Assembly: GCA_026390775.1 (NCBI GenBank)
Contig: JAPLFF010000007.1
Span: 496,001 to 560,000 of the forward strand
Length of the DNA: 64,000 nucleotides
DNA from: Ignavibacteriales bacterium
GTDB taxonomy: Bacteria > Bacteroidota > Ignavibacteria > Ignavibacteriales > Melioribacteraceae
Direction: 5' to 3'
Every line of letters starts with the position of its first letter. Position 1 is the stretch's first letter. The position numbers were made by a program, and so were the translations under genes. Shown here piece by piece: positions 1,077-19,264 of this stretch. Below the pieces are notes generated by a model. The model made no database searches. It was not told where the DNA came from and saw nothing but the letters and a program-made list of their open reading frames with translations.

Positions 1077-3149
1077 CTACAACTTATACAGATCTCTCAT
1101 CAACTCTTCGAACTGCTGAAAGTACAATGCTTGTTCCGGATCGCTTAAAGCATTTGGCGGATCAGGATGAAACTCGATCATAATTCCATGTGCACCAACA
1201 ATCTTTGCCGCTTTTGCCAATGGAATAACTTTGTTCCGTTCGCCTACTGCATGCGAAGGATCAACTATAACCGGAAGATGAGTTAACTCTTTCAATACCG
1301 GAATAGCACTTAAGTCCAAAGTATTTCTTGTAGCAGTTTCAAATGTTCTAATTCCTCTTTCACACAACATTACTTGTCTGTTCCCCTGCGATAAAATATA
1401 TTCCGCCGCATTGAGCAGTTCATCTATTGAAGCCATCAATCCCCGCTTAAGCATAACAGGCCTGTGAGATTTACCAACTTCTTTCAACAAAGCAAAATTC
1501 TGCATATTGCGTGCACCAACCTGAAGTATATCTGCGGTCTTTGCAACTTCAACTACATGTTCGGTATCAAGAACTTCGGTAATAACCGGCATCTCATAAT
1601 ATTTACCGGCATCAGTTAAGAATTTTAAAGCATCTAGGCCTAATCCTTGAAAACTGTAAGGAGAAGTTCTTGGCTTAAAACATCCGCCACGTAAAATTTG
1701 TGCACCGTTTTCTTTTGCTTCAAGTGCGCATTTTAAAATCATCTCTTCCGATTCTACAGAACACGGACCAGCGATTACTATAAAATTATTTCCTCCAATA
1801 ACAACATCTTTAACTTTGATGATCGTATCATCACTTTTGTATTCCCGGCTAGCAAGTCGGTAACTTTTTGATTTTGATTTCTTCGTCGGCTGAATTTCTG
1901 TTTCTGTTTTTTGTTCGTTTGGTGCAGATTCAGAATGTTCATTTAAAATATTCAGATATTCTAATTTTGTCCGTTCAAGTTCTTGCGATGGATAACTTCC
2001 CAACACTTTCATAAACCTTGTGTGCTGTCCTAATTCATCTAAAACTTTTTGAACCAACTCACTTGTAATGTTTCCTTCAAAATCGAGATAGAACATTTCT
2101 TCCCAAGGATTTCCAATGATTGGTCGGGATTCAAGTTTTGTTAAATTCACATTAGATTTTCGAAATACATTTAACGCTTCAACAAGAGAACCGGGAGTGT
2201 GCGATGTTGCCATAACAATTGATGTCTTGCATGGAATACGGAAATCAACTTCATTTGGTTTACGCGAAGCAACTAAAAATCTTGTAAAATTTTCCGATTG
2301 GTTTGCGATATCTGTTTTCAAAATTTTTAGCCGAAAAAGTTTTGCTGCTTCTTCACTTGCAATAGCCGCGTATGAAGAATTACCTTCTTCCTTAATTTTC
2401 TGAACTGACATAGCGGTATCATCAAAATATTCAATGGATACATTAGGAATCGTTTCTAAAAATTTACTGCATTGAGCTGCCGCTTGATAATGAGCATAAA
2501 CTTTTTTGATTTTTCTAAACGAAATCTCTTCACTTGCAACCAAACAATGTTTCACTTGAAATTTTTCTTCACCAACAATTGATAAAGTTGTATGAAGAAG
2601 AAGATCATACACTTCATTGATCCCGCCAGACGTAGTATTTTCGATTGGCAATACTGCAAGATCGGCTTCACCTTTTTCAACAGCATCAACTACTTCATCA
2701 AATCTTTTCTTAGATACAAAATGCAGATCGGCATTGCGATGAGTAAAATATTTTTGCGATGCGAGATAACTGTAAGATCCTTCAATACCTTGAATAGCAA
2801 CTGTAATAGTTTTTTTCTTTTCCCCTTTTCTGTTCAATTTTGTTTGAACATAATTTTGCTGAAGCCGAACGGAGTCTTCAATTATTTCATAAAAAACTTT
2901 TGTAAGAAAATGGGAATCTAATCCTTCTTTCTTACCGATCTTAATTAAACGATTTAATAGTTCCGATTCTCTTTGCTGGTCTCTTATTGGTTTTTGAGAG
3001 TTTTCTTTTGCTAGAATAACTTCTCTGCTCAACATTCTTCTGTCTGCCAGCAGTTTTATCAGCTCGGAATCCAACTGATTAATCTTTTCTCTTAATTTCG
3101 AAATATTCTCTTTTTTCTTTTTTCTCATCTTTATATTCAGTTTTCTCAA
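1077..3149 (-). CDS. Trifunctional chorismate mutase / prephenate dehydratase / DAHP synthase
   Basis: A 690-residue fusion of three shikimate/phenylalanine enzymes. Residues about 14-100 form an AroQ-type chorismate mutase helix bundle ([20 protein letters not shown]). Residues about 113-300 are prephenate dehydratase with the catalytic TRF motif ([11 protein letters not shown]). Residues about 305-385 are a phenylalanine-type ACT regulatory domain with the ESRP motif. After a charged linker, residues about 440-690 are a type I-beta DAHP synthase ([34 protein letters not shown]). All key motifs look intact. The protein would carry out the first shikimate step and two steps from chorismate to phenylpyruvate. 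The ATG at 3149 gives MRKLNIKM; the second Met (residue 8) is an equally possible start. The gene is monocistronic on the minus strand. Confidence 0.9.
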
Positions 3150-3310
3150 ATTGTGGGTCGAAGGTATAAATTTTTTTACGTTAAAAAAAATTGATTTACG
3201 TTTATTGATTGATTAGATATTAAATAGTTGCTAATTTTGAATTGGATATAAATCTCCGTTATTCAGTAATTCATAAACCTCAATTTAGTTTATCATATAG
3301 GAGGTTATTT

Positions 3311-4213
3311 ATGGTAAATCAATCCCGCCGCAACTTTTTAAAGACAGCCGCACTTGTTGGAACAGCAGTTACCGGATTATCATCAAAGACAAAAGCAGCA
3401 CCAAAGAATATTTTATCTGAAGATCGAATGGGTGTGTTAGTTGATACCACAGTGTGTATCGGATGCCGTAAATGTGAATGGTCTTGTAAAATTGCTCACA
3501 ATTTGGAAACTCTTTCTATTGAAGCTTATGATGATAGAAGTGTTTTTAAAACAATGAGACGACCCGGTTCTAAAGCATTAACGGTTGTAAATGAATATAA
3601 GAATCCTGATGAGGAAAAATTTCCGATCAATGTAAAAGTACAATGTATGCATTGCGATCATCCGGCATGCGTCTCTGCGTGCATAGTTGGTGCTTTATCG
3701 AAACAAGAAAACGGATCGGTAATTTGGGATACAGACAAATGCATCGGCTGCCGTTATTGTATGGTTGCATGCCCATTTCAAGTTCCGGCATTCGAGTTTG
3801 AGAATGCATTAAAACCTGATATTAAAAAATGCGATTTCTGCTACGAACGGACTAAAGAAGGAAAACTTCCTGCTTGCACGGAAATTTGTCCTGTTGAAGC
3901 CATAACTTACGGAAGAAGAGAAGATCTTGTTAAAGCGGCACATCAAAAAATTAAAAACTATCCCGATCGTTACATCAATCGTGTGTTTGGTGAATATGAA
4001 GTCGGTGGAACTTCATGGATCTATTTAGCAAATACAGAATTTGAGAAATTGGATTTTCCGAAACTCGGAAAAGATCCCGCACCCGGAGTTAGTGAAGCAA
4101 TCCAGCATGGAATCTTCGCTTACTTTGTTCCGCCCGTTGCCCTTTATGCATTACTCGGCGGAGTTATGTGGATCAATAAAAATAAAAAGAAATCCGAGAA
4201 TGAGGAGATATGA
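3311..4213 (+). CDS. Tat-exported four-cluster ferredoxin subunit (HybA/CbcU-like)
   Basis: 300 residues. I place the start at ATG 3311 because an AGGAGG ribosome site lies just before it and the protein then begins with a twin-arginine signal (SRRNFLKTAALVGTA). A longer frame from a TTG at 3242 is unlikely. Four cysteine groups typical of HybA/DmsB/PsrB-type electron-transfer subunits are present: CIGCRKCEWSC, CMHCDHPACVSAC, CIGCRYCMVAC and CDFCYERTKEG...CTEIC. The C-terminus has one membrane helix followed by lysines (about residues 270-290), so the protein should be anchored with its clusters in the periplasm. The NrfD subunit follows directly and the 13-haem cytochrome after that, the same set as in Cbc4 (CbcSTU) or Hmc-like complexes. 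It probably passes electrons between the quinone subunit and the cytochrome. Confidence 0.88.
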   Translation: MVNQSRRNFLKTAALVGTAVTGLSSKTKAAPKNILSEDRMGVLVDTTVCIGCRKCEWSCKIAHNLETLSIEAYDDRSVFKTMRRPGSKALTVVNEYKNPDEEKFPINVKVQCMHCDHPACVSACIVGALSKQENGSVIWDTDKCIGCRYCMVACPFQVPAFEFENALKPDIKKCDFCYERTKEGKLPACTEICPVEAITYGRREDLVKAAHQKIKNYPDRYINRVFGEYEVGGTSWIYLANTEFEKLDFPKLGKDPAPGVSEAIQHGIFAYFVPPVALYALLGGVMWINKNKKKSENEEI

Positions 4214-4215
4214 TT

Positions 4216-5454
4216 ATGGAAGATTTCAAACCAACACTAATGAAAAAAAAATATTTTACTCCTGTTGTTATTGGATTAGCCGTTTTAGTCCTAAACGGAG
4301 TAATGTTCTTACTTGCTCGATTCATTTTCGGAATTGGTTCAGTAACAAATCTTGATAATCAACATCCGTGGGGAATTTGGATCGGTCTTGATGTTGCAGC
4401 CGGAGTTGCACTTGCAGCGGGCGGATTTACTACTGCTGCATTAGGTCACATCATGCACAAAGATCAATATCATACAATTATTCGTCCTGCACTTTTAACT
4501 GCGGCACTTGGTTATACTTTTGTAGCCGTAAGTGTAATGATAGATCTCGGACGTTACTATTATATCTGGCATCCACTTGTTATGTGGAACGGAAGTTCTG
4601 TCCTTTTTGAAGTTGGTATATGTGTTATTATTTACTTGTTTGTACTATATATTGAATTCTTACCAATAGTCTGCGAGAGATTTATTGGAAGAGTAAAACT
4701 TCCGGGATTGTTGAAATCATTAAATAATCCAATTGATAAAGTTTTGCGAATCCTTGATAAAGGATTAGAAAAAACAATGTTCATTTTCATTATTGCGGGC
4801 GTTGTGCTTTCTTGCTTGCATCAATCATCTCTTGGAACGTTGATGGTAATTGCCGGACCGAAGATGCATCCGCTTTGGCAAACACCAATTCTTCCTTTAC
4901 TTTTTTTACTCTCTGCTGTTTCGGTTGGATTGCCAATGGTAATCATGGAATCATTAATAACATCAAAATCTTTTGGTTTAAAACCTGAGATACATATTCT
5001 TTCTAATCTTGGAAGTATGGTTGCACCTCTGCTTGGAATTTATCTAGCATTCAAAATCGGTGATATGATGATTCGCCAAACATTTGTTTACTTAACTACA
5101 TTTAGTGCCGCAAGTGTAATGTTCACTGTTGAATTATTATTCGGTGTGATCATTCCTTTAAGAATGTTTATGTCAAGACAAGTAAATAAATCACCGCTTG
5201 GATTATTAATTGCTTCGTTTCTTGTTATCATGGGAGTATTTCTGAATCGTCTGAATAACTTTTTAGTTGCTTACACTCCGCCGTATGAAGTTCATTCTTA
5301 TTTCCCTTCCATCGGAGAAATTTCAGTTACAGTCGGTTTCATTGCATTCGAAATTCTCTTGTTCAGAATTGCAGTAATGATTTTCCCGATTGTAAGTGTA
5401 CCTAATACATCAGCACAACGAACAAAATATTCGATCCGCGGAGGTGCACAATGA
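4216..5454 (+). CDS. NrfD/PsrC-family quinone-interacting membrane subunit
   Basis: About 412 residues with roughly ten membrane helices and the NrfD/HybB pattern (NQHPWGIWIGLDVAAGVALA near the N-terminus). This family holds the quinone site in Psr, Hyb, Hmc, Qrc and Cbc complexes. Two starts are possible: ATG 4210 overlaps the previous stop, but ATG 4216 has a better distance from GAGGAG (4202-4207), so I chose 4216. The downstream cytochrome gene overlaps it by 4 bases (ATGA), so translation is coupled. No molybdopterin or hydrogenase catalytic subunit is encoded nearby, which argues for a quinone:cytochrome oxidoreductase. The direction of electron flow cannot be read from sequence. Confidence 0.88.
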   Translation: MEDFKPTLMKKKYFTPVVIGLAVLVLNGVMFLLARFIFGIGSVTNLDNQHPWGIWIGLDVAAGVALAAGGFTTAALGHIMHKDQYHTIIRPALLTAALGYTFVAVSVMIDLGRYYYIWHPLVMWNGSSVLFEVGICVIIYLFVLYIEFLPIVCERFIGRVKLPGLLKSLNNPIDKVLRILDKGLEKTMFIFIIAGVVLSCLHQSSLGTLMVIAGPKMHPLWQTPILPLLFLLSAVSVGLPMVIMESLITSKSFGLKPEIHILSNLGSMVAPLLGIYLAFKIGDMMIRQTFVYLTTFSAASVMFTVELLFGVIIPLRMFMSRQVNKSPLGLLIASFLVIMGVFLNRLNNFLVAYTPPYEVHSYFPSIGEISVTVGFIAFEILLFRIAVMIFPIVSVPNTSAQRTKYSIRGGAQ

Positions 5455-6584
5455 AAATGAAAATATTTATTTTGTTTTTTTTCTTTTTATTAGTTATTAA
5501 TGCTCAGACTAAGAAGCAAGTTCATCCGAATCTTAATGGTATAACTTGTAAAACTTGTCATTCATGTGATATTCCAACAAAAGAAAATCCTTGTGTGATA
5601 CCTTGCCCGCGCGCGAAAATGGTTTCCATTGATCAATCACCTGAAGAAGGTCCTTCGGTTTTAACAATAGATAAATTTAAAAAACAGACTGATATTTATA
5701 GTCCTGTAATTTTTTCACACCGGTTACATGCAGAAATGAGCGGTATGTCCGGCGGTTGTAAAATGTGTCATCATTACAATCCACCTGGTCAAGTGATCGG
5801 ATGTTCCGATTGTCACGAGCTAATGCGTAAACGTACAGATGTAAGTAAGCCCGATCTTAAAGGCGCATATCATCGTCAATGTATGGAATGCCATCGCACA
5901 TGGAGCGGAAAAGTTGATTGTGAATCTTGCCATACTTTAAATGGTACATCACAAAACATAAAAGCACAAACGTTAACTGAAAAAAGTTCAAAGCGTGTTC
6001 ATCCTAAAATTATTGCGCCAACAACTTTAAAATTCGATACTCCTAAAGCATCCGGTAAGATGGTTACTTTTTATCATTCGCAACATGTTGATTTATTTGG
6101 ATTGGAATGCCAAAGTTGCCATACAAATGAAAGTTGTGCGAAGTGTCATACAAAAAATAAAACTTCACTTTTAATAACTAAAACGACTGAGCAGAAACAC
6201 GCAGTTTGTTCCAGCTGTCATAACACAAAACAAAACTGCGGTGATTGCCATTCCAATTCTGTTAAAGAAGGATTTAATCACGCAATAAAAACCGGATTTG
6301 ATATTACCAAGTTTCATGGAAAAGTTTCCTGCAATACTTGCCATACTGAAAAAGGAAAATTCACCGGTCTTAATTCAGAATGTATTAATTGTCATGGTAA
6401 ATGGACTCAGGAAAATTTCCAACACAAAGTTACCGGTGTTATTCTAGATGAAACGCACTTAACATTGGAATGCAAAGACTGTCATCAAGAAAAGAATTAT
6501 TCTAAACCAATTTGCACCAATTGTCACGAAGATAAATCATTCCCTAAAAATGTTCCGGGAAAATTAATTAAGAAGAACGGATGA
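5451..6584 (+). CDS. 13-haem periplasmic c-type cytochrome
   Basis: 377 residues with a signal peptide (MKMKIFILFFFFLLVINAQ) and 13 CxxCH haem-attachment motifs from CKTCH near residue 33 to CTNCH near residue 358. Many additional histidines, such as FSHRLHAEM and FYHSQHVD, are typical of bis-His ligation in the cytochrome c3/HmcA class. A CVIPC group near residue 48 lacks the following His and is not a haem site. Overlaps at both ends (ATGA) with the NrfD gene and the sensor kinase gene. It is the likely periplasmic electron carrier subunit of the 3311-6584 complex, comparable in role to CbcS or HmcA. The partner cytochrome is unknown. Confidence 0.9.
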   Translation: MKMKIFILFFFFLLVINAQTKKQVHPNLNGITCKTCHSCDIPTKENPCVIPCPRAKMVSIDQSPEEGPSVLTIDKFKKQTDIYSPVIFSHRLHAEMSGMSGGCKMCHHYNPPGQVIGCSDCHELMRKRTDVSKPDLKGAYHRQCMECHRTWSGKVDCESCHTLNGTSQNIKAQTLTEKSSKRVHPKIIAPTTLKFDTPKASGKMVTFYHSQHVDLFGLECQSCHTNESCAKCHTKNKTSLLITKTTEQKHAVCSSCHNTKQNCGDCHSNSVKEGFNHAIKTGFDITKFHGKVSCNTCHTEKGKFTGLNSECINCHGKWTQENFQHKVTGVILDETHLTLECKDCHQEKNYSKPICTNCHEDKSFPKNVPGKLIKKNG

Positions 6585-8458
6585 TACTTACTAGAAAAAT
6601 ATTTGGGAAGATCAGCTTAAAACTAATTGGCGTAGTTAGTGTAACTGCAATTTTAATAATTGGAGTTTATTCATATTTCAATGTCACATCACAAAGTGAT
6701 GTTTTACTTGCCGAAGTTGAGCGTCATGCAAATCAATTAAGTGAATCGGTAAAAAACTCGACACGTTATGTAATGTTATTGAATCAACGTGATCATATTC
6801 AAGAGATGATCAACAGAATCGGAAAAGACCCGGCGATTGATAACGTTCGCATCTTAAACAAAGAAGGTGAAATAATTTACTCTGCTCATCCTGATGACAT
6901 CGGCAAGATGCTGGATAAACAAGCAGAGAGCTGTTATGCATGTCACGCAGAAAATAAAGCATTGGAAAAATTACCCATTCAACAGCGGACAAGGATTTTC
7001 AAAACACACTCCGATTCATCACGCATCCTTGGAATAATTAATCCTATATACAATGAGAAATCATGTTACCAAGCTGATTGCCATGCACATTCTGCAAATG
7101 CCAAAGTTCTTGGTGTTCTCGATATAACAATTTCACTTTTAGATGTTGATGAGCAGATACATCAAAATGAAATCCGTGAAATATTATTTGCAGTTATTGC
7201 AATTACTGCTATTGGATTCATTATCGGGTTTTTTGTAAAACGCTGGGTTGATCATCCGGTTAGAGAATTAGTAAATGCAACAGATCAGGTAGCCGCCGGT
7301 AATTTGAATTACATCATTAAAAATCTAAGTTCTGATGAATTAGGAACGCTGGGGAAATCATTCAATAATATGATCAAGAAGCTTGATGAGACAAGTCAAC
7401 AATTATATCAATCAACCAAAATGGCTTCACTTGGACAATTGGCTGCAGGCGTTGCACACGAAATAAATAATCCTCTTACCGGAGTTCTAACCTACAGCAG
7501 TTTTTTGTTGAAACGGACAAAAGACAATCCGCAAATGCAGGAAGACCTTAATGTAATTGTACGCGAGACTTTGAGAAGCCGTGAAATTGTTAAAGGGTTA
7601 CTTGATTTTGCACGGCAGTCAACACCAAAGAAAAGTTCTATTGATGTAAACGATATAATTAATCATGCCATTGCGGTTGTAAACAATCAACTAAAACTGA
7701 ATAAAGTAAATCTTGTAAAAGAATTCGATCCATCGCTTCCAAAAATTACAGCTGATGCAAATCAGATTCAGCAAGTTTTCTTAAATCTATTTGTAAATGG
7801 CATTGATGCAATCGGTCAAAACGGCGGAACACTAACTGTGAAAACTTCGCAAATCAGTTTATCTCCAAGAGGAATTACACAGATCAAAAGTGCAGTGTGT
7901 GCAAAAACTCATAGTCTGATTGATGCAGAACATAAAATCGGAGGAATGCCATCACTGAGAATAAAAATTAAATCTAACAGTAATGAAGGATTTGTCAACA
8001 TAGATCCGGTTTACGGAAGTCATCGTCACTACTTTGGAATTGCATACGATAAAAACAGCAGTGTAAATCTTGCTTGCCCGGTTTGCGATATTTCATTTTT
8101 AGATAAGAATAGTAAATGCCCAAAGTGCGACGGACCGATTTATAAAATTCAAATACCAAATCAAGGATTTCTTGAAGGATGTGCTTCATTCAAAGATGAT
8201 TGGCAAAAATGGGATTTTGTTGACCGAGCCGGTGAGAAAAAATTTGTTGAAATAAATGTAACAGATTCCGGCTGCGGAATTCCACCTGAAAACTTAAATA
8301 AAATCTTTGAACCTTTTTTTACAACAAAAGGTCAGCGTGGAACCGGACTTGGTCTTTCCGTTATTTGGGGAATCATTGATAATCATAACGGATCCATTAC
8401 AGTTGAAAGTAAAGTCGGCATAGGCACAACATTTTCGGTTCGATTACCTCAACAATGA
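6581..8458 (+). CDS. Haem-binding sensor histidine kinase with zinc ribbon inserted in ATPase domain
   Basis: 625 residues. A membrane helix (about 10-32) is followed by a periplasmic domain with a CYACH haem motif (Cys118) and a second Cx4CH motif (CYQADCH, Cys162), then a second membrane helix (about 200-220), HAMP, and an HisKA domain with H-box GVAHEINNPLTGVL. The ATPase domain has its N-box (FLNLFVNGIDAI) and G-boxes (VTDSGCGIPPENL, GTGLGLSVIWG). Between them lie about 130 extra residues (nt about 7845-8245) containing a CPVC...CPKC zinc ribbon (Cys499/502/513/516). The gene overlaps the cytochrome gene by 4 bases, so it is part of that operon, and two receiver proteins follow. A redox or haem-ligand sensor for the respiratory module is the likely role. 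The insert is not part of the standard kinase fold and its purpose is unknown. Confidence 0.9.
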   Translation: MILTRKIFGKISLKLIGVVSVTAILIIGVYSYFNVTSQSDVLLAEVERHANQLSESVKNSTRYVMLLNQRDHIQEMINRIGKDPAIDNVRILNKEGEIIYSAHPDDIGKMLDKQAESCYACHAENKALEKLPIQQRTRIFKTHSDSSRILGIINPIYNEKSCYQADCHAHSANAKVLGVLDITISLLDVDEQIHQNEIREILFAVIAITAIGFIIGFFVKRWVDHPVRELVNATDQVAAGNLNYIIKNLSSDELGTLGKSFNNMIKKLDETSQQLYQSTKMASLGQLAAGVAHEINNPLTGVLTYSSFLLKRTKDNPQMQEDLNVIVRETLRSREIVKGLLDFARQSTPKKSSIDVNDIINHAIAVVNNQLKLNKVNLVKEFDPSLPKITADANQIQQVFLNLFVNGIDAIGQNGGTLTVKTSQISLSPRGITQIKSAVCAKTHSLIDAEHKIGGMPSLRIKIKSNSNEGFVNIDPVYGSHRHYFGIAYDKNSSVNLACPVCDISFLDKNSKCPKCDGPIYKIQIPNQGFLEGCASFKDDWQKWDFVDRAGEKKFVEINVTDSGCGIPPENLNKIFEPFFTTKGQRGTGLGLSVIWGIIDNHNGSITVESKVGIGTTFSVRLPQQ

Positions 8459-8476
8459 TATTTCAAAAAATATTTG

Positions 8477-9268
8477 ATGAAAGAACAAACTAACATATTA
8501 ATCATTGATGACGAAGAAGTAGTTATAAGTTCGATCTCAAAGATTGCAACATTGGAAGGATATTCAGTTGATTCTGTTCTAGATGCTTTTTCTGCACTGC
8601 AAAAAATTTCATCATTAAAATATAATCTCATCATTTGCGATATTATGCTTCCCGGAATGGACGGGTTTCAATTTCTAGCGGAACTCGAATCTAAACGGAT
8701 TGATACACCAGTTATAATGACGACAGGTTATTCGACAATTGAAAATGCCGTTAAATCACTTTACACCGGAGCGATTGAATTTATTCCCAAACCATTTACA
8801 GTTGATGAGATGATAAGTGTTATACGGCGTGGTATCAAATACAGTGCTCTTATGAAATTAAAAAGATTAAATAATGATTCAATTTTACTTGTTCCATGTC
8901 CGGCAAAATATTATCGCTTGGGTTATTCGGGTTGGATGAATAAAGATAACGACGGATCAGTTCTTATCGGCGCAACAGATTCTTTCATAAAAACAATTGA
9001 TCAAATAAAAAAAATTGAGTTACTCAGTACAAATGAAAAATTAACTCAGGCAACACCGGCTGTAAAGTTTGAAACCGAGGATGGTTTAGTCCACCAACTA
9101 TATTCCGTTATAAGCGGAATCATTTTAGCCGGTAATGAAAGATTGATTAACGAACCGGAGTTATTGGAGAAAGATCCTTATTTCGATGGATGGATTTACA
9201 GGATTGTTCCAACAGAACTTGAATATGAAATGAAATTATTAATTCCATGCAGTTCAGATAGATCTTAA
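8477..9268 (+). CDS. Response regulator with degenerate GcvH-like domain
   Basis: 263 residues from ATG 8477 (a TTG at 8474 is in frame; neither has a clear ribosome site). Residues about 5-125 are a receiver domain (ILIIDDEE, phospho-Asp in CDIMLPGMDG, Lys in FIPKPF). The rest, about 140-255, resembles glycine-cleavage H protein: a GATDSFIKTIDQIKKIEL strand set, a hairpin ending LYSVISGII, and the C-terminal INEPELLEKDPYFDGW pattern followed by IYRIVP. The position where GcvH has its lipoylated lysine falls near Gly203-Leu204, so the lysine is absent. There is no DNA-binding domain. It follows the haem kinase by 18 bases and is followed by a second receiver-GcvH-like protein. The probable output is protein-protein, not transcriptional. 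Confidence 0.82.
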   Translation: MKEQTNILIIDDEEVVISSISKIATLEGYSVDSVLDAFSALQKISSLKYNLIICDIMLPGMDGFQFLAELESKRIDTPVIMTTGYSTIENAVKSLYTGAIEFIPKPFTVDEMISVIRRGIKYSALMKLKRLNNDSILLVPCPAKYYRLGYSGWMNKDNDGSVLIGATDSFIKTIDQIKKIELLSTNEKLTQATPAVKFETEDGLVHQLYSVISGIILAGNERLINEPELLEKDPYFDGWIYRIVPTELEYEMKLLIPCSSDRS

Positions 9269-9292
9269 GTTTATTAATTAAGGAGAATAATT

Positions 9293-10447
9293 ATGCCGCT
9301 CTTCATTTTAGCAGTAATCATTTTTATCATCGCCGATGTAATAATAAGATACGCGATCAAGATCGTAAATGAAAAGAAAACTCGCAAAGAGAGAGAAACA
9401 ATACTTGAAGAAAGTGTGAACATTGATTTCAGCAAAGAAGCTGTTTCTCTCAAGCGTGTTGAAGTAACAAATCCAAAAGCAAAAATTTTATGTGTTGATG
9501 ATGAGAATGTGATACTGGATAGTTTCCGAAAAATATTAGTTCTTGATGGTTATACAGTTGACACCGTAAGCTCCGGTCCGGAAGCAATAAATTTAATTAA
9601 ATCTCATCACTATGATTTTGTTTTTACGGATTTGAAAATGCCTGAAATGGATGGTGTTGAGGTAACTAAAACGGTTAAATTTTTACGGCCGGATATAGAT
9701 GTAATAATCATTACCGGTTATGCTACAGTTGAAACTGCTGTTGATTGTATGAAACTCGGTGCGCTCGATTATGTTCAAAAACCATTTACCGAAGATGAAC
9801 TTCTTGAGTTCACAAAAAAATCTTTGATCAAGAGACAAGACCGAATCCAAAAGCAATTAAAACCGCGTGTACATATTACTCATCTTAACGAAAATGAAAA
9901 ATTAAATGTTGGCGAATTTGCAATTCCAGGCGGCGTTTTTATTTCGGAGGGACATTGTTGGGCAGGCATTTCTCAAGAAGGAGCTGTTAGAATTGGTATA
10001 GATGATTTTGCAAAAAAATTAATCGGTAAAATTGATGATATCGAGTTTCCTAATCTTGGAATGGCAATCGCAAAAGGACAACCATTATTCAGTATTAAAC
10101 AAGGGAAAAAATCAATTCAATTTAATTCACCGGTTAGCGGACAAGTTGCAAAAGTAAATTTGGATCTTGGTGATAGCCTGGATGCGCTTGATTATTCCAC
10201 TTATGAAAAAAATTGGATCTGTGTTATTGATGCGGATAAATTAGATTCTGAATTAGCACAACTCAAAATCGGAAAGAACGCGGTTAACTTTTATCAAGAT
10301 GAAATAGAGAGATACACAAAGCGTATCAAAGACTTTATTAAGAACGGAGATGATAAAAAAGATAACTTTGAACTTTACTGGGGTCAACTGCAAAACTTAG
10401 AAGAAAAAGATTGGTACATAATAACCGGAGAGTTTTTTAAGAAATAA
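9293..10447 (+). CDS. Membrane-anchored response regulator with GcvH/lipoyl-like domain
   Basis: 384 residues with a good AAGGAG ribosome site. An N-terminal membrane helix (PLFILAVIIFIIADVIIRY) is followed by a charged stretch, then a receiver domain at about 63-185 (ILCVDDEN, phospho-Asp in FTDLKMPEMDG, VQKPFTEDE). Residues about 205-330 look like GcvH: GHCWAGISQEGAVRIGIDDF, a GKIDDIEFPNLG strand, and the lipoyl hairpin KQGKKSIQFNSPVSGQVAKV. Counting back from SPVSG, Lys272 aligns with the lipoylated lysine of GcvH. Last gene of the 3311-10447 operon, with a terminator directly after it. A receiver tied to the membrane and fused to a lipoyl-like domain is unusual; a role in thiol redox signalling is inference only. 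Confidence 0.85.
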   Translation: MPLFILAVIIFIIADVIIRYAIKIVNEKKTRKERETILEESVNIDFSKEAVSLKRVEVTNPKAKILCVDDENVILDSFRKILVLDGYTVDTVSSGPEAINLIKSHHYDFVFTDLKMPEMDGVEVTKTVKFLRPDIDVIIITGYATVETAVDCMKLGALDYVQKPFTEDELLEFTKKSLIKRQDRIQKQLKPRVHITHLNENEKLNVGEFAIPGGVFISEGHCWAGISQEGAVRIGIDDFAKKLIGKIDDIEFPNLGMAIAKGQPLFSIKQGKKSIQFNSPVSGQVAKVNLDLGDSLDALDYSTYEKNWICVIDADKLDSELAQLKIGKNAVNFYQDEIERYTKRIKDFIKNGDDKKDNFELYWGQLQNLEEKDWYIITGEFFKK

Positions 10448-10465
10448 TATTTTAATACTAGTATT

Positions 10466-10499
10466 AAGGAGAAGTTCGCCCTTCTCCTTTTTTATTTTT
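10466..10499 (+). terminator. Rho-independent terminator
   Basis: A 9-bp stem AAGGAGAAG / CTTCTCCTT (10466-10474 and 10481-10489) with a six-base loop is followed by a T-rich run. It closes the Fe-S/NrfD/cytochrome/sensor operon and separates it from the large cytochrome operon that starts at 10714. Confidence 0.85.
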
Positions 10500-10713: not shown

Positions 10714-12705
10714 ATGAAAAATCTTATTACACTTCTCTTTCTAACTTTGATTCTACTAACTTCTGTTTTTGCACAGAGTAAAGATGATCAAGTTTGTCTT
10801 GATTGCCATGGAGATAAAACACTAACTACAACTCGCAATGGAAAACAAGTTTCTCTTTTTGTTAATGGCAAATCTTTTGCTGGTTCTATACACGAAGAAA
10901 TTAGTTGCACCGGCTGCCACTCCGATGTAGATTCTAATAATCTTCCTCATTCCGAAAAATTGAGTAAAGTTAATTGTGCAACTTGCCATGAAACTCCGGT
11001 TGCACATTACGAAAGAAGTCTTCACGCAGAAGCATTAAAAAAAGGTTTAACATTAGCGCCTACTTGTGTTTCTTGCCATAGCAAACATGAAATACTCACT
11101 TCTAAAAATGTGAATTCCAAAACATATGTGATGAATATTCCGGCACTTTGTGGACAATGTCATAAAGAGGGAACACAAGTGTCATCCTTAGTTAATCCAG
11201 AAGAAAGAAAAGTTTTAAGCGATTATTCAGAATCAATTCATGGTGAAGGATTATTTAAGAGAGGGTTAATTGTAACAGCAGTTTGCACTAGTTGTCATAC
11301 ATCTCACGATATTCTTCCGCACACAAATCCCTTATCAACTATTAACCGAAACAACATTGCAAAAACATGTACACAATGCCACAGACAAATAGAACAAGTT
11401 CATACAAAAGTTATACGCGGTTCTCTTTGGGAAAAACAACCGAATAAAATTCCCGTTTGTATTGATTGCCACGCCCCGCACAAAGTTCGCAAAGTTTTTT
11501 ATGATGATAGTTTTCCTGATGATAAGTGCATGAAATGTCACGGACAAAAAGAATTAACTAAAATTGTAGATGGTAAATCTGTTTCGCTTTATGTTAATTA
11601 TGATCAATTTAAAAGTTCTGCACATACTAATAATTCTTGCATCAAATGTCATACAAACATTAGTAATTCAAAAAATCCAGTCTGCTTGAATAGCGGGAAA
11701 GTGGATTGCTCTATCTGTCACACTGCACAAGTTGATGATTACAATATTAGTTTACATGGACAAAAACATTTTCAAGGAGATAAAACCGCTCCGTACTGTG
11801 TGGATTGCCATACAAGCCATAATGCACAATCTAAGAAAAGTACGACATCTCCAACATTTGCACGGAATGTTCCTGAACTGTGCGGTAAATGTCATCGTGA
11901 AGGAAAAAATATTGCTACAGCTTTGGATGAAAGTAAATTAGGAATTGTTGCAAACTATAGAGAAAGTATTCACGGTAAAGGTTTACTTCAAAGCGGATTG
12001 CTTGTCACGGCAACCTGTGTTAATTGTCATTCTAGTCACAGGGAATTACCTAAGAAAGATCCGCGTTCTACAGTAAATCCAAACAACATTGCTACTACCT
12101 GTGCTCAATGCCATCTTGGTGTTTATGAAGAATTTAAGAGCAGCATTCACAGTCCAGATGTTACAAAGACAGATCAAAAACTTCCGGTTTGTAATGACTG
12201 TCACCGTTCACATGAGATCAATAGAGTTGATCTAAGCGATTTCAGAACTCAAATAATAAGTCAATGCGGAAAGTGCCACGAGAAAGTTTCGGAAACATAT
12301 TTTGATACTTTCCACGGTAAAGTTTCCAAACTTGGTTCAATCCGTGCTGCTCGTTGTTATGATTGCCACGGTGCACATAATATTCTTCCGGCAAGCAATC
12401 CTAAATCAAAATTAAGCAGGCATAATATAATTGAGACCTGTCAAAAATGTCATCCAAACTCAAATAGAAAATTTGTTGGATATTTAACTCACGCTACTCA
12501 TCATAACCGTGATAAATATCCTTATCTGTTTTATACTTTCTGGGCAATGGTTTTTCTTTTAGTTGGAACATTTTCTTTCTTTGGTATTCATACTATAATG
12601 TGGTTTACTAAATCATTAAGGGAAAAGAAGAGACATAAGATCGAAAAGAAAAAAGTTATTGAAAATTCTCAACCTATTGAGGAAGACTACGAAAGACATG
12701 ATTAG
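10714..12705 (+). CDS. 19-haem c-type cytochrome with C-terminal membrane anchor
   Basis: 663 residues: signal peptide (ending VFAQ near residue 21), 19 CxxCH motifs, and one C-terminal membrane helix (about 605-628) followed by a basic cytoplasmic tail. Haem motifs 1-8 and 9-16 form two matching eight-haem blocks. The distance from motif 1 (nt 10795) to motif 9 (nt 11527) equals that from motif 8 (11458) to motif 16 (12190), 732 bases, so this is an internal duplication plus three further haems. The cytochrome b gene follows 54 bases later, so the pair probably forms a membrane quinol:cytochrome complex. Membrane anchoring on the periplasmic face is deduced from the signal peptide and tail. 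The exact family name is uncertain. Confidence 0.9.
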   Translation: MKNLITLLFLTLILLTSVFAQSKDDQVCLDCHGDKTLTTTRNGKQVSLFVNGKSFAGSIHEEISCTGCHSDVDSNNLPHSEKLSKVNCATCHETPVAHYERSLHAEALKKGLTLAPTCVSCHSKHEILTSKNVNSKTYVMNIPALCGQCHKEGTQVSSLVNPEERKVLSDYSESIHGEGLFKRGLIVTAVCTSCHTSHDILPHTNPLSTINRNNIAKTCTQCHRQIEQVHTKVIRGSLWEKQPNKIPVCIDCHAPHKVRKVFYDDSFPDDKCMKCHGQKELTKIVDGKSVSLYVNYDQFKSSAHTNNSCIKCHTNISNSKNPVCLNSGKVDCSICHTAQVDDYNISLHGQKHFQGDKTAPYCVDCHTSHNAQSKKSTTSPTFARNVPELCGKCHREGKNIATALDESKLGIVANYRESIHGKGLLQSGLLVTATCVNCHSSHRELPKKDPRSTVNPNNIATTCAQCHLGVYEEFKSSIHSPDVTKTDQKLPVCNDCHRSHEINRVDLSDFRTQIISQCGKCHEKVSETYFDTFHGKVSKLGSIRAARCYDCHGAHNILPASNPKSKLSRHNIIETCQKCHPNSNRKFVGYLTHATHHNRDKYPYLFYTFWAMVFLLVGTFSFFGIHTIMWFTKSLREKKRHKIEKKKVIENSQPIEEDYERHD

Positions 12706-12759
12706 ATTTTAAAATTGTTAAATTAATTATTAAACATAAAACAGAAAGAAAGTAGATAT

Positions 12760-13611
12760 ATGATTGAACCATTGAACACAAATAAAAAATATTACGAACG
12801 ATTTGATGCATACTCAAGATTTCTACACATACTTGTGATCACCAGTTTTATCTCTCTTGCATTGACAGGAATGATTATAAAATTTTCCGGAATCGGAATC
12901 TTTCAAACAATTTCCAAAATGATGGGTGGTTATGCTGTAACCGGATTTATCCACAGAGTTGCAGCAGTAGTAACTTTTATTTATTTCTTTCTACACATCG
13001 GATATCTCTTCCGCAAAAAAAAGAAAAAAGGAATTTCATACGCTTCCTTTCTTATAGGAGAAAATTCTTTAGTCCCAAATAAAAATGACTTTAAAGAATT
13101 AATTGCTACGATGAAATGGTTTGTTGGAAAAGGTCCGCGTCCGCAGTACGGGAGATGGACTTATTGGGAAAAGTTTGACTATTGGGCTGTGTTCTGGGGT
13201 GTTGCTATTATTGGTTCAAGCGGATTGATATTATGGTTCCCAGAATTTTTTACAAATCTTGGTCTTCCCGGAACTTTTATAAATATTGCAACAATAATTC
13301 ACAGCGATGAAGCTCTGCTTGCTGTTGGATTTATATTCACATACCATTTTTTCAATACTCATTTTAGACCGGATAAATTTCCGATGGATACGGTTATCTT
13401 TACCGGGAAAGTAAGTCTTGATGAATTGCAAGAAGATCGTCCGCGTGAATATGAAACTATAATGCATGATCCTGAATTGCAGAAAAAGTTAGGCGGTCCG
13501 CCGCCGGTATTTTTAAGCAGAGCCGCAAGGATATTCGGTTTTACTGCTTTAACAACAGGAATAATTCTAGTTCTACTGATTATTTATTCTATGATTTTCT
13601 TGTATCAATAA
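12760..13611 (+). CDS. Di-haem cytochrome b (HydC/FdnI-like membrane subunit)
   Basis: 283 residues with about five membrane helices. Histidines on helices fit b-haem ligation: FLHIL near residue 23, FIHRVAAVV, FFLHIGY and the late helix TYHFFNTHFRP. The sequence matches the formate dehydrogenase gamma/HydC group of quinone-reactive cytochromes b. It is a paralogue of the C-terminal half of the next gene's product: both have a YW-rich segment ending ILWFP, and both have a late His-containing helix followed by a PM motif. It lies between two multihaem cytochrome genes in one operon and probably pairs with the 19-haem protein upstream. Confidence 0.88.
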   Translation: MIEPLNTNKKYYERFDAYSRFLHILVITSFISLALTGMIIKFSGIGIFQTISKMMGGYAVTGFIHRVAAVVTFIYFFLHIGYLFRKKKKKGISYASFLIGENSLVPNKNDFKELIATMKWFVGKGPRPQYGRWTYWEKFDYWAVFWGVAIIGSSGLILWFPEFFTNLGLPGTFINIATIIHSDEALLAVGFIFTYHFFNTHFRPDKFPMDTVIFTGKVSLDELQEDRPREYETIMHDPELQKKLGGPPPVFLSRAARIFGFTALTTGIILVLLIIYSMIFLYQ

Positions 13612-13632
13612 AATTCTATTTACGGAGTTGTA

Positions 13633-16062
13633 ATGTTTTCTTTTCCCAAAAAATTAATTGTGATCGGTTTTTCTTTTTCCTTAATTCTTTTTTTTAATCA
13701 AACAATGGGTGCTCAAGATTTCAAATGCGCCGATTGCCATGAAAATGTAATTCAAAAATCAGTTCATAATGATGTTATTAGCTGCCAGGATTGTCATCAG
13801 AATATTAAAGATGAAAGTCATGTTGAGAAAAAAAAATATCAAAAAGTTAAATGTGAAACTTGTCACGAAGAATATTCAGATTTAGTAAAAAGCGATATAC
13901 ATCATCGCTTAAAAGGAAAAGTAAAAAATCCTCCCGATTGTAAAAAATGTCATGGCACTCACGAAGTTCAAACTCCACCAAAAGAAAATAAGTTAAAAGT
14001 AAAAGAATATTGTTCTAAGTGTCATACAAGTTTAGTGCTTGCCAATCCTTATCACTCAAAATCTGTTGAAGGAAATAAATGTATTAGCTGTCATAAACAA
14101 AACGGTTACATCAAACTAACTCAATCTGTTCATAAAAATTTAGAATGCGCGGATTGCCATAATTATATTTCGAATAATCTTGGTAATCATCCAAAGAATG
14201 TAGGCGCTACTCAAAAAGCTGATTGTTACTTGTGCCATTCTGCAATTGCGAAAGAACATAGAGAAAGCATTCACGGAATTTCGTTAAATGAAGGAATTGA
14301 TGAAGCCGCAATGTGCTGGAATTGTCATGGCTCGCATGATATTCAGAAAGTTAAAGATCCTAAAAGTTTAGTGTACCCAAAAAATCTTGGTGCTACTTGC
14401 GGCATCTGTCATGATAATCCAAAACTTGTTGAAAAATTTTCTTTCAGTATAAAAAATCCTGGACTTCTCTTCTCACAATCAGTTCACGGAATGTTGGTCG
14501 CAAAAGGAAGATTGGATGCTGCTAATTGCAGTATTTGTCATGGTGTTCATGATATTAAAAACAAAGTGCAACCGGGTTCAAAGATTTCATCATTTAATGT
14601 CCCGCAGACTTGCGGTCAATGCCATGCAGAAATTGCCTTTGAATATGAACAGTCTATTCATTGGATCAGAGCAAAAAAAGGAGTCCGCGAAGCTCCGGTT
14701 TGTAATGACTGCCATAACGAACACAGTATACATGCTGTTAATACTGTAGATAAAAAGTTAGAAGCAAAAAAACTTCAGCAAAAAACCTGTATGATCTGTC
14801 ACGAAGATCCCCGCATCGTCGAAAGATTCGGCGGGTCAGGCGGACAAGCAAAACAATATGAGGACAGCTATCATGGTTTAGCAGTGATGCGTGGTGATAA
14901 AGACGCAGCTATGTGTGTAGATTGCCACAGTGTCCATAAAATTTTGCCAAAGAATAATCCAGAATCAACAGTTAATGTTGCAAACATAACTGCCACATGT
15001 AAAAAATGTCATTCGAATGCAACCGAAACATTTTCAAAAAGTTATTCTCACAAAACATTAGATAAAACTGCTTCCAAAGTTGAAGATGTAGTTTCAACAA
15101 TTTATTTCTGGCTTATCGTTTCTGTTATCGGCGGAATGATTCTTCACAACTTAATGATCTTCATTTTTGAAGTAAGAAAAAAACGCAAACATTTAAAAAA
15201 TGAAATAACTATTCCGAGATTTACAAAGAATGAAGTTGTTCAACATTATATATTATTGATTTCATTTATTACTCTTTCTGTTACAGGCTTCGCTTTGAAG
15301 TATCATGAAAGTTGGTGGGCTGATTTGTTAAGGACATTTGGATTGAATGAAACTGTCCGCCAATATACACATCGTACTGCAGCAGTAGTAATGATTGTAG
15401 CGGGAGTTTATCATCTCTTTTATTTGTTCTTCACACCACGCGGTCGAGATATTTTAATAACCCTACTTCCACGTATGAGTGATTTAACTGAAGCAAGAGA
15501 CAACATTCTTTATTACCTCAAACTAAAGAAAGAGCGTCCCAAATTTGATGCTTATGATTACACAGAAAAAGCTGAGTACTGGGCACTTATTTGGGGTACA
15601 ATTGTTATGGGTGCAACAGGATTCATACTTTGGTTCCCCACTATTGTTGGAGATTGGGCTCCTGTATGGTTAATAAAAGTTAGTGAGTTAATACACTTTT
15701 ACGAGGCGATCCTAGCAACATTAGCAATTGTAGTATGGCATTGGTTCTTTGTAATCTTCCATCCGCATGAATATCCCATGAGTGTTACTTGGATCGATGG
15801 AAAAATGTCTCTTCACACTTACCGACATCATCATGAACGACACTTTAGAAGAGTTCTTCTTGAGTGGAAAGAATTCAAAAGCGGAAAACGTGATCTTAAA
15901 AAAGTAAGTAATACTACAAATCTTTTCATCTCTGCTTTTGAAAAGAAAGGCCTAATACCCGATACAATACTTCAGCACGAAATAGATAACGATCCTGAAC
16001 TTAGGGTCTGGTTGGAAGAAAAACTTCAACCCAAAGAGAAAAAAGTTGAAGAAAAGAAGTAA
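13633..16062 (+). CDS. CbcL-like fusion: 16-haem cytochrome c plus cytochrome b
   Basis: 809 residues. After a signal peptide (ending TMGAQ) come 16 CxxCH motifs, from CADCH near residue 32 to CKKCH near residue 457. A membrane helix at about 490-515 leads into a HydC/FdnI-type cytochrome b domain (about 530-735) with His in EVVQHY, QYTHRTAAVV, VYHLFYLFF and VWHWFFVIFHPHEYPM. The tail is cytoplasmic and charged. The architecture, multihaem c fused to di-haem b, is that of Geobacter CbcL, an inner-membrane quinol oxidase used in extracellular electron transfer, but with more c-haems than I recall for CbcL. It is located 21 bases after the stand-alone cytochrome b. Role by analogy: moving electrons from menaquinol to periplasmic cytochromes. 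Confidence 0.9.
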   Translation: MFSFPKKLIVIGFSFSLILFFNQTMGAQDFKCADCHENVIQKSVHNDVISCQDCHQNIKDESHVEKKKYQKVKCETCHEEYSDLVKSDIHHRLKGKVKNPPDCKKCHGTHEVQTPPKENKLKVKEYCSKCHTSLVLANPYHSKSVEGNKCISCHKQNGYIKLTQSVHKNLECADCHNYISNNLGNHPKNVGATQKADCYLCHSAIAKEHRESIHGISLNEGIDEAAMCWNCHGSHDIQKVKDPKSLVYPKNLGATCGICHDNPKLVEKFSFSIKNPGLLFSQSVHGMLVAKGRLDAANCSICHGVHDIKNKVQPGSKISSFNVPQTCGQCHAEIAFEYEQSIHWIRAKKGVREAPVCNDCHNEHSIHAVNTVDKKLEAKKLQQKTCMICHEDPRIVERFGGSGGQAKQYEDSYHGLAVMRGDKDAAMCVDCHSVHKILPKNNPESTVNVANITATCKKCHSNATETFSKSYSHKTLDKTASKVEDVVSTIYFWLIVSVIGGMILHNLMIFIFEVRKKRKHLKNEITIPRFTKNEVVQHYILLISFITLSVTGFALKYHESWWADLLRTFGLNETVRQYTHRTAAVVMIVAGVYHLFYLFFTPRGRDILITLLPRMSDLTEARDNILYYLKLKKERPKFDAYDYTEKAEYWALIWGTIVMGATGFILWFPTIVGDWAPVWLIKVSELIHFYEAILATLAIVVWHWFFVIFHPHEYPMSVTWIDGKMSLHTYRHHHERHFRRVLLEWKEFKSGKRDLKKVSNTTNLFISAFEKKGLIPDTILQHEIDNDPELRVWLEEKLQPKEKKVEEKK

Positions 16063-16192
16063 TTTTTGCAAACATTGAAAGTTGCCAATTAACTCAAATT
16101 GGGCTATATTCAAATAGGATTTTAATGTTCTTTTATTTAATAATGATCAAACTAACTCCAAATCAACAATAATAATTGAAGGAGAGATTAAA

Positions 16193-16741
16193 ATGTTACA
16201 CAAAAAAGCTGTTCTTTTCTGTTTCATCTTGGCTGCATACTTGGTTCTTCCAATAAGCACATCACAAGCACAACCTTACGGTTATGAAGGTGCTCAAGTT
16301 TGCGGTATGTGTCATAAAACTGAAAAACAAGGCCAACAATTAAAAATTTGGTCTGAAAGTAAGCATGCACAAGCTTATAAGGCACTTCTAAGCGATAAAT
16401 CAAATGAAATCGCTATGAAAAAATACAACAAGAAAGCTGTTGATGCACCGGAATGTTTGAAATGCCATGTCTCCGGTTATAATGTTGATAAAGCTTTAAT
16501 CGGTGCAAAGTTCAAAGTTGAAGACGGAGTTCAATGCGAAACATGCCATGGACCTGGTTCAGGTTATAAAACGATGGCTGTTATGAAGAAGAAAGATGAT
16601 GCAAAGAAAAAAGGTTTAATGATTCATGATGATGGCGCAAAATTCTGCAAGACCTGCCACAATTCCGAAAGTCCTTTTTTCAAAGATTTTAAGTATGATA
16701 AAATGTGGGAAAAAATTGCTCATTCAATTCCGAAAGGATAA
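16193..16741 (+). CDS. Four-haem periplasmic cytochrome (c554-like)
   Basis: 182 residues with a signal peptide (cut near TSQAQP) and four CxxCH motifs: CGMCH, CLKCH, CETCHGPG and CKTCHNSES. The order and the CHGPG and CHNSES contexts match the cytochrome c554/c'-type family (cytochrome_C554 domain). A strong GAAGGAGAG ribosome site precedes the ATG. A 130-base gap separates it from the fusion gene, so it may also have its own promoter. As a small soluble carrier placed between the inner-membrane genes and the outer-membrane genes, it is a natural candidate for the periplasmic shuttle. No CxxCK or other catalytic haem site is present, so a nitrite reductase role is unlikely. Confidence 0.87.
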   Translation: MLHKKAVLFCFILAAYLVLPISTSQAQPYGYEGAQVCGMCHKTEKQGQQLKIWSESKHAQAYKALLSDKSNEIAMKKYNKKAVDAPECLKCHVSGYNVDKALIGAKFKVEDGVQCETCHGPGSGYKTMAVMKKKDDAKKKGLMIHDDGAKFCKTCHNSESPFFKDFKYDKMWEKIAHSIPKG

Positions 16742-16762
16742 TACATATCTACAGGGCGAAAA

Positions 16763-18028
16763 ATGAAAAAAATATTTTTTTTAATTTTTGTATGTCTACC
16801 GTTATTGATTCCCGCCCAGAATCTTAACGGTAGATTTTCTTCTTCCTTCTACACATTTGAAAGATTTGACACCACAAAAACTTCCGATACTTTTCTAAGA
16901 ACATTTCAAGCACTTACACTTAATCTTAATTATAAAGATTTCTCAATTAGAACTCGAACGAACTTCGAAACTAATATTGGAAAAGGATTAGATAATGATC
17001 CGAGATTGAGATTTTACAATCTATACCTTGAAGCTCGTAATATTCTTGAAATGTTCACTCTGAAATTTGGCAGACAACCATTGTTTACTCCTGTTGCCGG
17101 TGGATTGTTTGACGGTGTTAATATAAAATTTAAATACGCTAATGCATCGTTAAGCGGTTTTTACGGTGGAAATGTTCCTGCGTATCAGAAGTTAGAACTT
17201 ACTAATGATTTAAAGAATGATTATGTCTTGGGCGGCAAATTCGACATATATTTTCTAGATCATTTTACTTTTGGTTTAAACTACATTGATAAGAATTTTA
17301 AAGCGGCAGATTATAATACTCTAAGATTAAATTCAGATTACAATCTTGTTAATGTTCTTATTGAGCAAAAATCTAATCAGTATAAATTCTTATCTGCTGA
17401 TGCTTCATACAATTTAAACGGCTTATTGAATATTGACACTCGTTATCAATATGATGTTAATTTTATGACTACATCAAAATTTGAAATTAGCGGCCGGGTT
17501 CAGGCTACAGATCAATTAGGTATTGATGTTTATTATAATTTTCGCGAACCAAAAATCAGATACAATTCTATTTTTTCTGTTTTCAATTACGGCAATTCAC
17601 AAGAAATTGAAGGTGGAGTTGATTACAAGATTTCCGAATCATTTTCTCTCTTTGGAAAATTCGGAAATGTTACTTATGAAGATGAAAATTCTCAACGTTT
17701 AACAATCGGCACTAACACAAAGTTTGGAAGTTTCAGTTATAGAAAAACACTTGGATACGCTGGTGAACTCGATGCAATTTCTGCTTACACAGCATACTCT
17801 TTTGCTGATGGATTTTTTACTCCGTCAGTTGGAATTGCATATACTTCTTACAAATTATCAAAAGATGCTGAGACAAATAACATACTTTCTTTTTTAGGCG
17901 GATTTAATTTAAGACCTTGGACAAATTATTCATTCGATCTTCAAGGACAATATTTTAACAACAAGATTTACAAGAATGATTTTAGAATTATGTTCAAAGT
18001 AAATCATTGGTTTAATACTAATTTCTAA
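16763..18028 (+). CDS. Outer-membrane beta-barrel, probable porin of a cytochrome conduit
   Basis: 421 residues with a signal peptide (MKKIFFLIFVCLPLLIPAQ) and a mature part of many short amphipathic strands rich in Tyr/Phe/Asn (FSIRTRTNFETNIG, LSGFYGGNVPAY, FSYRKTLGYAG). It ends in WFNTNF, with the terminal Phe expected of a barrel. Six bases separate it from a 14-haem periplasmic cytochrome gene, and a multihaem lipoprotein gene follows. That gene order is the hallmark of porin-cytochrome conduits such as MtrCAB or OmbB/OmaB/OmcB. I cannot show homology to MtrB itself; the conduit role rests on context. Confidence 0.8.
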   Translation: MKKIFFLIFVCLPLLIPAQNLNGRFSSSFYTFERFDTTKTSDTFLRTFQALTLNLNYKDFSIRTRTNFETNIGKGLDNDPRLRFYNLYLEARNILEMFTLKFGRQPLFTPVAGGLFDGVNIKFKYANASLSGFYGGNVPAYQKLELTNDLKNDYVLGGKFDIYFLDHFTFGLNYIDKNFKAADYNTLRLNSDYNLVNVLIEQKSNQYKFLSADASYNLNGLLNIDTRYQYDVNFMTTSKFEISGRVQATDQLGIDVYYNFREPKIRYNSIFSVFNYGNSQEIEGGVDYKISESFSLFGKFGNVTYEDENSQRLTIGTNTKFGSFSYRKTLGYAGELDAISAYTAYSFADGFFTPSVGIAYTSYKLSKDAETNNILSFLGGFNLRPWTNYSFDLQGQYFNNKIYKNDFRIMFKVNHWFNTNF

Positions 18029-18034
18029 CAGATT

Positions 18035-19240: not shown

Positions 19241-19264
19241 TTAATTTAACCTCTGGGAAAGAAT

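Follow-up and report, generated by a model that had tools for sequence, protein, structure and literature searches.

Response regulators with a GcvH-fold domain, mostly without the lipoyl lysine, in an operon for an Hmc-like electron-transfer module

The window, a 64,000-nucleotide stretch of DNA from an Ignavibacteriales bacterium, carries at 3242-10447 six genes that overlap by a few bases or are separated by gaps of 15 and 24 bases. They encode, in this order, an HmcB/HybA-like protein, an HmcC/HybB-like NrfD protein, a cytochrome, a sensor kinase and two response regulators, which we call RR1 and RR2 (Table 1). The start of the HmcB-like gene is probably the in-frame ATG at 3311, which lies behind AGGAGG. 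A hairpin downstream of RR2 may end the unit, although terminator-like patterns are not commoner in the region than expected from shuffled sequences (5 found, 5.0 expected). With the NCBIfam equivalog models, HmcB scored 316.9 against a cut-off of 420 and HmcC 267.3 against 550; with the Hyb models, HybA reached 254.1 and thus only just missed the cut-off of 263, and the HybB-type model gave 343 against 450. These strong scores below the cut-offs indicate a module related to the Hmc, HybA-HybB and Qrc-type NrfD modules, but not a proven member of those complexes. Upstream, on the minus strand at 1077-3149, a single 690-aa open reading frame combines by eye chorismate mutase, prephenate dehydratase and DAHP synthase. 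Behind the operon, at 10714-20440, a long series of genes encodes multihaem cytochromes, accompanied by membrane proteins of the cytochrome b561 type; the genes beyond 16741 in this series were identified by eye.

Table 1. Features of the operon and its 3′ end (positions in the window).
Feature	Position	Strand	Evidence
HmcB/HybA-like 4Fe-4S protein with twin-arginine signal	3242..4213	+	NCBIfam, Pfam
HmcC/HybB-like NrfD-family integral membrane quinone subunit	4210..5454	+	PF03916, 1e-20
Multihaem cytochrome, 13 CxxCH	5451..6584	+	motif count, domain search
Sensor histidine kinase (HAMP, HisKA, HATPase)	6581..8458	+	Pfam
ATPase-domain insert of the kinase, rich in Cys (C440-C534, including CPxC...CPxC)	7898..8182	+	alignment
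RR1: receiver (residues 8-117) and GcvH-fold domain (residues 151-256), D at the lipoyl-lysine place	8474..9268	+	Pfam, model
RR2: membrane-anchored receiver with non-canonical GcvH-fold domain, 384 aa	9293..10447	+	Pfam, structure model
RR2 N-terminal hydrophobic helix (about residues 2-24), then basic residues; predicted anchor	9296..9364	+	sequence, model
RR2 receiver domain	9485..9808	+	PF00072, residues 65-172, 2.3e-30
RR2 GcvH-fold domain	9947..10297	+	Pfam GCV_H PF01597, residues 219-335, 2e-17
Lys272 codon AAA, first K of GKKS, at the lipoyl-lysine place	10106..10108	+	alignment to solved GcvH
Terminator-like hairpin with T tail	10466..10489	+	pattern search

The sensor part of the kinase contains two haem motifs, a CxxCH (C118, C121, H122) and a Cx4CH (C162, C167, H168), whose cysteines and histidines do not vary in any of the 64 aligned rows. 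The insert in its ATPase domain lies by eye between the N-box and the D-box; it occurs in 52 of the 64 rows, including the window, and is missing from 12. Judged by eye, the insert (C440, H444, C534) resembles a zinc-ribbon or rubredoxin-type site.

RR2 was assigned to the response regulators by its match to the receiver model and by the presence of the acidic pair, the phospho-Asp and the Lys; the corresponding residues D69, D70, D113 and K163 are invariant in an alignment of 54 rows. In the AlphaFold2 model the N-terminal helix spans residues 2-41. The N-termini of the relatives look alike by eye in an alignment of 71 rows, and the receiver side of the protein would be cytoplasmic. The GcvH part scored 63.7 bits with the Pfam model (cut-off 22.2), which places it in the GcvH fold superfamily, but it remained below the NCBIfam gcvH cut-off (TIGR00527, 60.5 versus 115.85 bits). 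Searched alone, it found solved GcvH chains (3hgb, 2.5e-12; 3ift, 2.8e-12; 1dxm, 6.6e-12). The model, calculated from the 54-row alignment, reached a pLDDT of 83.7 and a pTM of only 0.60, so the relative placement of its domains is uncertain. Foldseek matched it to solved GcvH structures with a TMt of 0.78-0.91 (3hgb, 1.7e-10, TMt 0.80; 3ab9, TMt 0.91) and to receivers as well. In VIA-align all 50 rows were receiver matches, which cover the receiver part and not the GcvH part. In plasmids, tblastn gave no match at E 1e-20.

These results bear out much of a preliminary description made from the sequence, which had read the open reading frame as a membrane-anchored receiver fused to a GcvH-like domain and had pointed to its pairing with a haem kinase and a quinone module. 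The domains were found by Pfam, and the neighbouring genes are recognizable by Pfam, NCBIfam and the haem motifs. That description had suggested comparing a structure prediction with GcvH and had named a model unlike GcvH as an argument against it; the model resembles GcvH. The second half of the description, namely that RR2 may carry lipoate on Lys272 and take part in dithiol redox signalling, fared differently, as shown below.

The gene directly upstream, which had been overlooked in the preliminary description, encodes a second fusion of the same kind. RR1 matched GCV_H with 4.5e-15 in Pfam, and no membrane anchor was seen in it. Its model has a pLDDT of 93.6, and the best GcvH match in Foldseek was 3a8i_E (1.3e-10, TMt 0.88). 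At the lipoyl-lysine place, 55 RR1 rows show D in 34, N in 8, E in 7, K in 2 and A, S, H or a gap in one each; these are 55 of 58 aligned rows, one canonical GcvH row and the non-RR1 rows from L051 and L080 having been left out. Position -3 is E in 18 of the 55. The place is thus mostly acidic or Asn in RR1 relatives and varies freely in those of RR2, a sign of differing constraint.

To describe the conservation of Lys272 in RR2, orthologues were defined as matches of at least 44% identity that reach residue 290. This gave 70 sequences and, with the window, 71 rows; two further copies of the window's own genome were omitted, near-copies were retained, and a set thinned at 80% identity holds 57 rows. 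As the preliminary description had stated, Lys272 aligns with the lipoylated lysine of solved GcvH proteins. Among the 71 rows, however, this column contains K in only 12, next to N in 13, S in 10, G in 8, T in 6 and other residues. After thinning, K remained in 6 of 57 rows, and in variability the column ranks fifth among the 131 of the domain. The canonical GcvH control has E at -3, V at -1, K and S at +3 in 32 of 32 rows. The RR2 family therefore lacks the strict conservation of the lysine that would be expected of a lipoyl carrier. The E-x-V-K signature is also lost: position -3 is K in the window, K or R in 57 of 71 rows and E in a single one. Two other places for a relocated lipoyl-lysine, K269 and K273, were considered and rejected, as both columns are basic but not strictly Lys; the invariant K242 was rejected as well, since it lies in a short helix (238-244) of the model, outside the hairpin.

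Lipoyl redox signalling, in which a dithiol on Lys272 would exchange a redox signal with the quinone/haem module, could draw on three observations. In the model the lysine has the expected position, flanked by two beta strands; it is present in 11 of the 19 rows of the clade that includes the window; and the genome, which the preliminary description had proposed to search for lipoate ligases, encodes LipA (384.8 bits, cut-off 310.25) and two LplA/LipB-type enzymes. These enzymes show that lipoate can be made and attached in this organism, but not that RR2 receives it, and they are explained by the separate canonical GcvH that the same genome carries. All but one of the 12 K rows belong to that 19-row clade, and its other 8 rows have N, T or R. 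The clade comes from a tree built without column 272, on which six changes of this column are required in total. Within the clade, Lys is encoded by AAA or AAG and the other residues by AAT, ACA, ACT or AGA. The genes contain 29-41% GC, and drift from one codon to a neighbouring one would therefore suffice to produce the pattern. It is unlikely that this sub-clade has regained lipoylation. Moreover, the Glu at -3 is replaced by K (10) or R (2) in every one of the 12 rows with Lys272, and in the partner RR1 the window's residue is D, with K confined to 2 of 55 rows. We consider lipoyl redox signalling very improbable, and as far as can be judged from sequence, lipoylation is not supported as the function of the RR2 family.

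The domain is nevertheless well conserved elsewhere. Invariant in the 54 rows are G214, H221, W223, G230, G235, D237, D238, K242, P253, P280, G283, N289 and G327. RR2 thus shares with GcvH (PF01597/TIGR00527) the fold and the His, Trp, Gly, Pro and Asn scaffold residues, but differs from it by the missing conserved lipoyl-Lys and E-x-V-K and by the fused receiver and membrane anchor. Other conserved positions are not those of canonical GcvH: K242 is present in 71 of 71 RR2 rows, where canonical proteins have G, S, R or E; the place of the invariant D237 is T in 32 of 32 canonical rows; and C310 occurs in 67 of 71 rows, as opposed to I, V or F. Retention of these residues suggests that the fold seems to be kept for a role other than lipoate carriage. 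One such role might be a thiol switch, with a Cys310 disulphide sensing redox in place of lipoate. We regard this as improbable in spite of the conservation of C310, because it is the sole Cys among the invariant or nearly invariant columns (C222 occurs in 28 of 57 rows), because 8 stand-alone proteins of the family have no Cys at this place (alignment A3) and because C310 may be a mere core residue.

We examined the gene neighbourhoods of RR2 relatives in other genomes. Of 548 confirmed relatives, 80 were kept, which correspond to 78 distinct loci; the 74 loci L004-L077 form the RR2 set, four distant loci (L078-L081) being excluded. Both Hmc-like genes were found at 57 of the 74, many of the remaining loci being short, and a kinase with CxxCH at 64. 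These 74 include two loci (L034, L067) that show RR2 homologues only and one (L022) that shows only RR1 and RR2. In the phylum of the window, all 99 of 99 genomes gave a GcvH match, and among the matches listed, larger non-canonical forms occur in genomes of the window's class. Receiver-free GcvH-like proteins of two kinds were found in this class; one is anchored in the membrane and about 220 aa long, the other has Cys motifs and a length of about 260-290 aa. At four loci (L113-L116) HmcB-like and HmcC/NrfD-like genes lie between these two forms, and genes for a CxxCH kinase and a receiver protein come next. The Cys-motif region of one such protein (L113:6509-7354) gave no credible match in Pfam. 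In three other proteins with Cys motifs (L199:5797-6723, L203:5997-6917 and L206:4694-6693), repeated Cys-rich segments precede the GcvH part, by eye of the kind CxWM.AGV....C......C..C.

For comparison with canonical GcvH, we took 20 loci each from Desulfobacterota and Acidobacteriota, a single one from each genome, chosen among the non-canonical matches listed with the highest scores. Genomes that also carry the non-canonical kind supplied 20 canonical GcvH loci as a control, 16 of them in the window's phylum and 4 in Desulfobacterota. HmcB-like and HmcC/NrfD-like genes were both present at 25 of 40 non-canonical loci and at 0 of 20 canonical ones; the first figure is not unbiased, as the query was derived in part from proteins beside HmcB/HmcC-like genes and the 40 loci were top-scoring. 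A CxxCH kinase was found at 22 of 40 versus 0 of 20 loci. The lipoyl place held K in 5 of 67 non-canonical domains (including one in L200, a match of 4e-04 without a residue at this place, scored as not K); at the canonical loci it held K in 21 of 21 domains (including one weak match of 4e-04). The other 15 of the 40 lack one or both Hmc-like genes; one of them, L199, adjoins a large Hdr-type flavoprotein, as does L255, a locus outside the sample that is also without Hmc-like genes. Some of the non-canonical loci without Hmc-like genes have no recognized neighbours. Three Desulfobacterota open reading frames of 972-990 aa carry a non-canonical GcvH-like domain at the end; the two that were scanned with Pfam combine Fer4, FlpD (MvhD), molybdopterin-binding and GCV_H domains. 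In two of these three FlpD-type fusions the lipoyl place is K.

A tree of 162 GcvH domains, calculated by a quick method, places canonical and short proteins on one side of a branch, with K in 36 of 36; among the 126 GcvH-like domains on the other side, K was found in 12. The canonical/short group was set by name or by a length below 160 aa, and not by the lysine. RR2-type fusions (23 rows, SH-aLRT 96) lie inside the stand-alone membrane-anchored forms, and RR1-type domains form a separate group (14 rows, SH-aLRT 99) nearer to the canonical side; the tree has long branches, and SH-aLRT is its only support measure. By parsimony the receiver label changes twice, which makes two receiver fusions the simplest account. 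Of the 162 rows, 158 are different, some control-locus proteins having entered twice, and matches with fewer than 70 aligned positions were dropped. Among the 32 canonical rows, 14 were added by name and the others came from the control loci. The receiver rows stem from 16 sources of the first scan, including the window, and from later loci. Type labels were assigned by pattern rules, under which two RR1-type rows came out as TM-type.

RR1 and RR2 could be response regulators whose output, a GcvH fold that has ceased to carry lipoate, is a docking module that controls a membrane electron-transfer complex. We favour this reading tentatively and rate it slightly below an even chance; the docking, its target, the direction of the effect and its control by phosphorylation are all points that we infer. 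The haem kinase would sense the redox state of the periplasm or the quinone pool via its two c-type haem sites and would phosphorylate RR1 and RR2. Phosphorylation might then alter the binding of the GcvH-fold domains to the cytoplasmic face of the HmcC/NrfD-type complex of the operon, by which electron flow or complex assembly would be adjusted directly and not via transcription. The docking model is suggested by the loss of the lysine and the E-x-V-K signature while fold and scaffold residues are retained, by the invariant catalytic residues of the receiver and by the linkage of RR2 and the non-canonical loci to Hmc-like genes and a CxxCH kinase. It also agrees with the stand-alone membrane-anchored proteins that flank HmcB/HmcC-like genes in the window's class and with the domain tree, on which receiver-fused domains form two groups apart from each other. 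In glycine cleavage, GcvH docks successively on its partner enzymes; for a docking role the fold would thus not have to acquire anything new. On the other hand, the 15 of 40 non-canonical loci without the full Hmc-like pair speak against docking, as do the lysines found in the window's clade (11 of 19 rows) and in two of the three FlpD-type fusions.

The gene linkage would also suit assembly factors or ordinary transcriptional regulators. If the GcvH-like domains helped to build the multihaem/Fe-S/NrfD complex, with the receivers linking its assembly or maturation to the redox state, the same linkage would be expected, and the stand-alone forms paired around HmcB/HmcC-like genes would find an explanation. 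The fusion to FlpD and Fer4 rather suggests a lasting part of a complex than a passing helper, and we think that an assembly function is rather unlikely. The domains might instead serve as a signalling relay only, mediating receiver dimers or binding the kinase or another regulator, with transcription as the final output. Response regulators do adjoin stand-alone GcvH-like genes, and for the single one scanned, that of L255, Pfam gave a sigma-54 activator output. RR1 and RR2 are devoid of a DNA-binding domain in Pfam, however, and the domain occurs receiver-free beside or within electron-transfer proteins. A mere relay is thus unlikely. The occurrence beside NrfD modules in some genomes and in fusion with an MvhD-type protein in others is how a docking part would behave. 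Taken further, the lipoate-free GcvH fold could be a general docking module for electron-transfer complexes of the membrane and the flavin/Fe-S kind, and its fusion to receivers, probably twice, would let a haem two-component system throttle a quinone/cytochrome complex without transcription, through binding at the membrane that depends on phosphorylation. This wider proposal is possible, but we hold it with more doubt. If the docking model is true, respiratory complexes in several phyla would be under post-translational two-component control.

A precedent for a response regulator that acts on a respiratory complex by contact may be seen in mycobacteria, where Rv3143 was reported to interact with NuoD and has been proposed as a component and modulator of complex I (PMC9274095, as far as the accessible part of that paper goes). 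The same part mentions no GcvH domain, and the likeness to RR2 is drawn from the description of the protein. Similar to the RR2 family, LbpA of sHdr sulphur oxidation is a GcvH-like protein encoded beside electron-transfer genes; in contrast to that family, these lipoyl carriers retain the lysine strictly, in 95 proteins according to the portion of PMC6067878 that was available. The preliminary description had remarked that a lipoyl or GcvH-type domain has no established role as a response-regulator output. In agreement with this, our literature searches gave no paper on such an output, subscription journals and a review of output domains lying mostly outside their reach. Nor did they, in mostly open literature, give a description of non-canonical GcvH-like proteins that accompany electron-transfer complexes. 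In their accessible parts, PMC5701242 deals with the canonical H protein and a different regulator, PMC5492636 makes no mention of Hmc, NrfD or glycine cleavage, and PMC3333781 makes none of GcvH, glycine cleavage or Hmc.

The more interesting finding is this mostly lysine-less, non-canonical GcvH-like family, tied to electron-transfer complexes and including receiver fusions. Since the family scores as GcvH in Pfam and most of the members examined lack the lysine, wrong annotation as glycine cleavage H protein is likely. At two of the excluded distant loci (L078:6010-7633 and L080), receiver proteins are encoded next to genes that by eye resemble those for complex I (Nuo)-type subunits; one of these proteins ends in a weak GcvH-like match (7.7e-07). 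Two short and divergent paralogues of GcvH, at L122:14513-14971 and L122:2900-3346, retain the lysine, within ESGK and EAAK, and are possible further lipoyl carriers.
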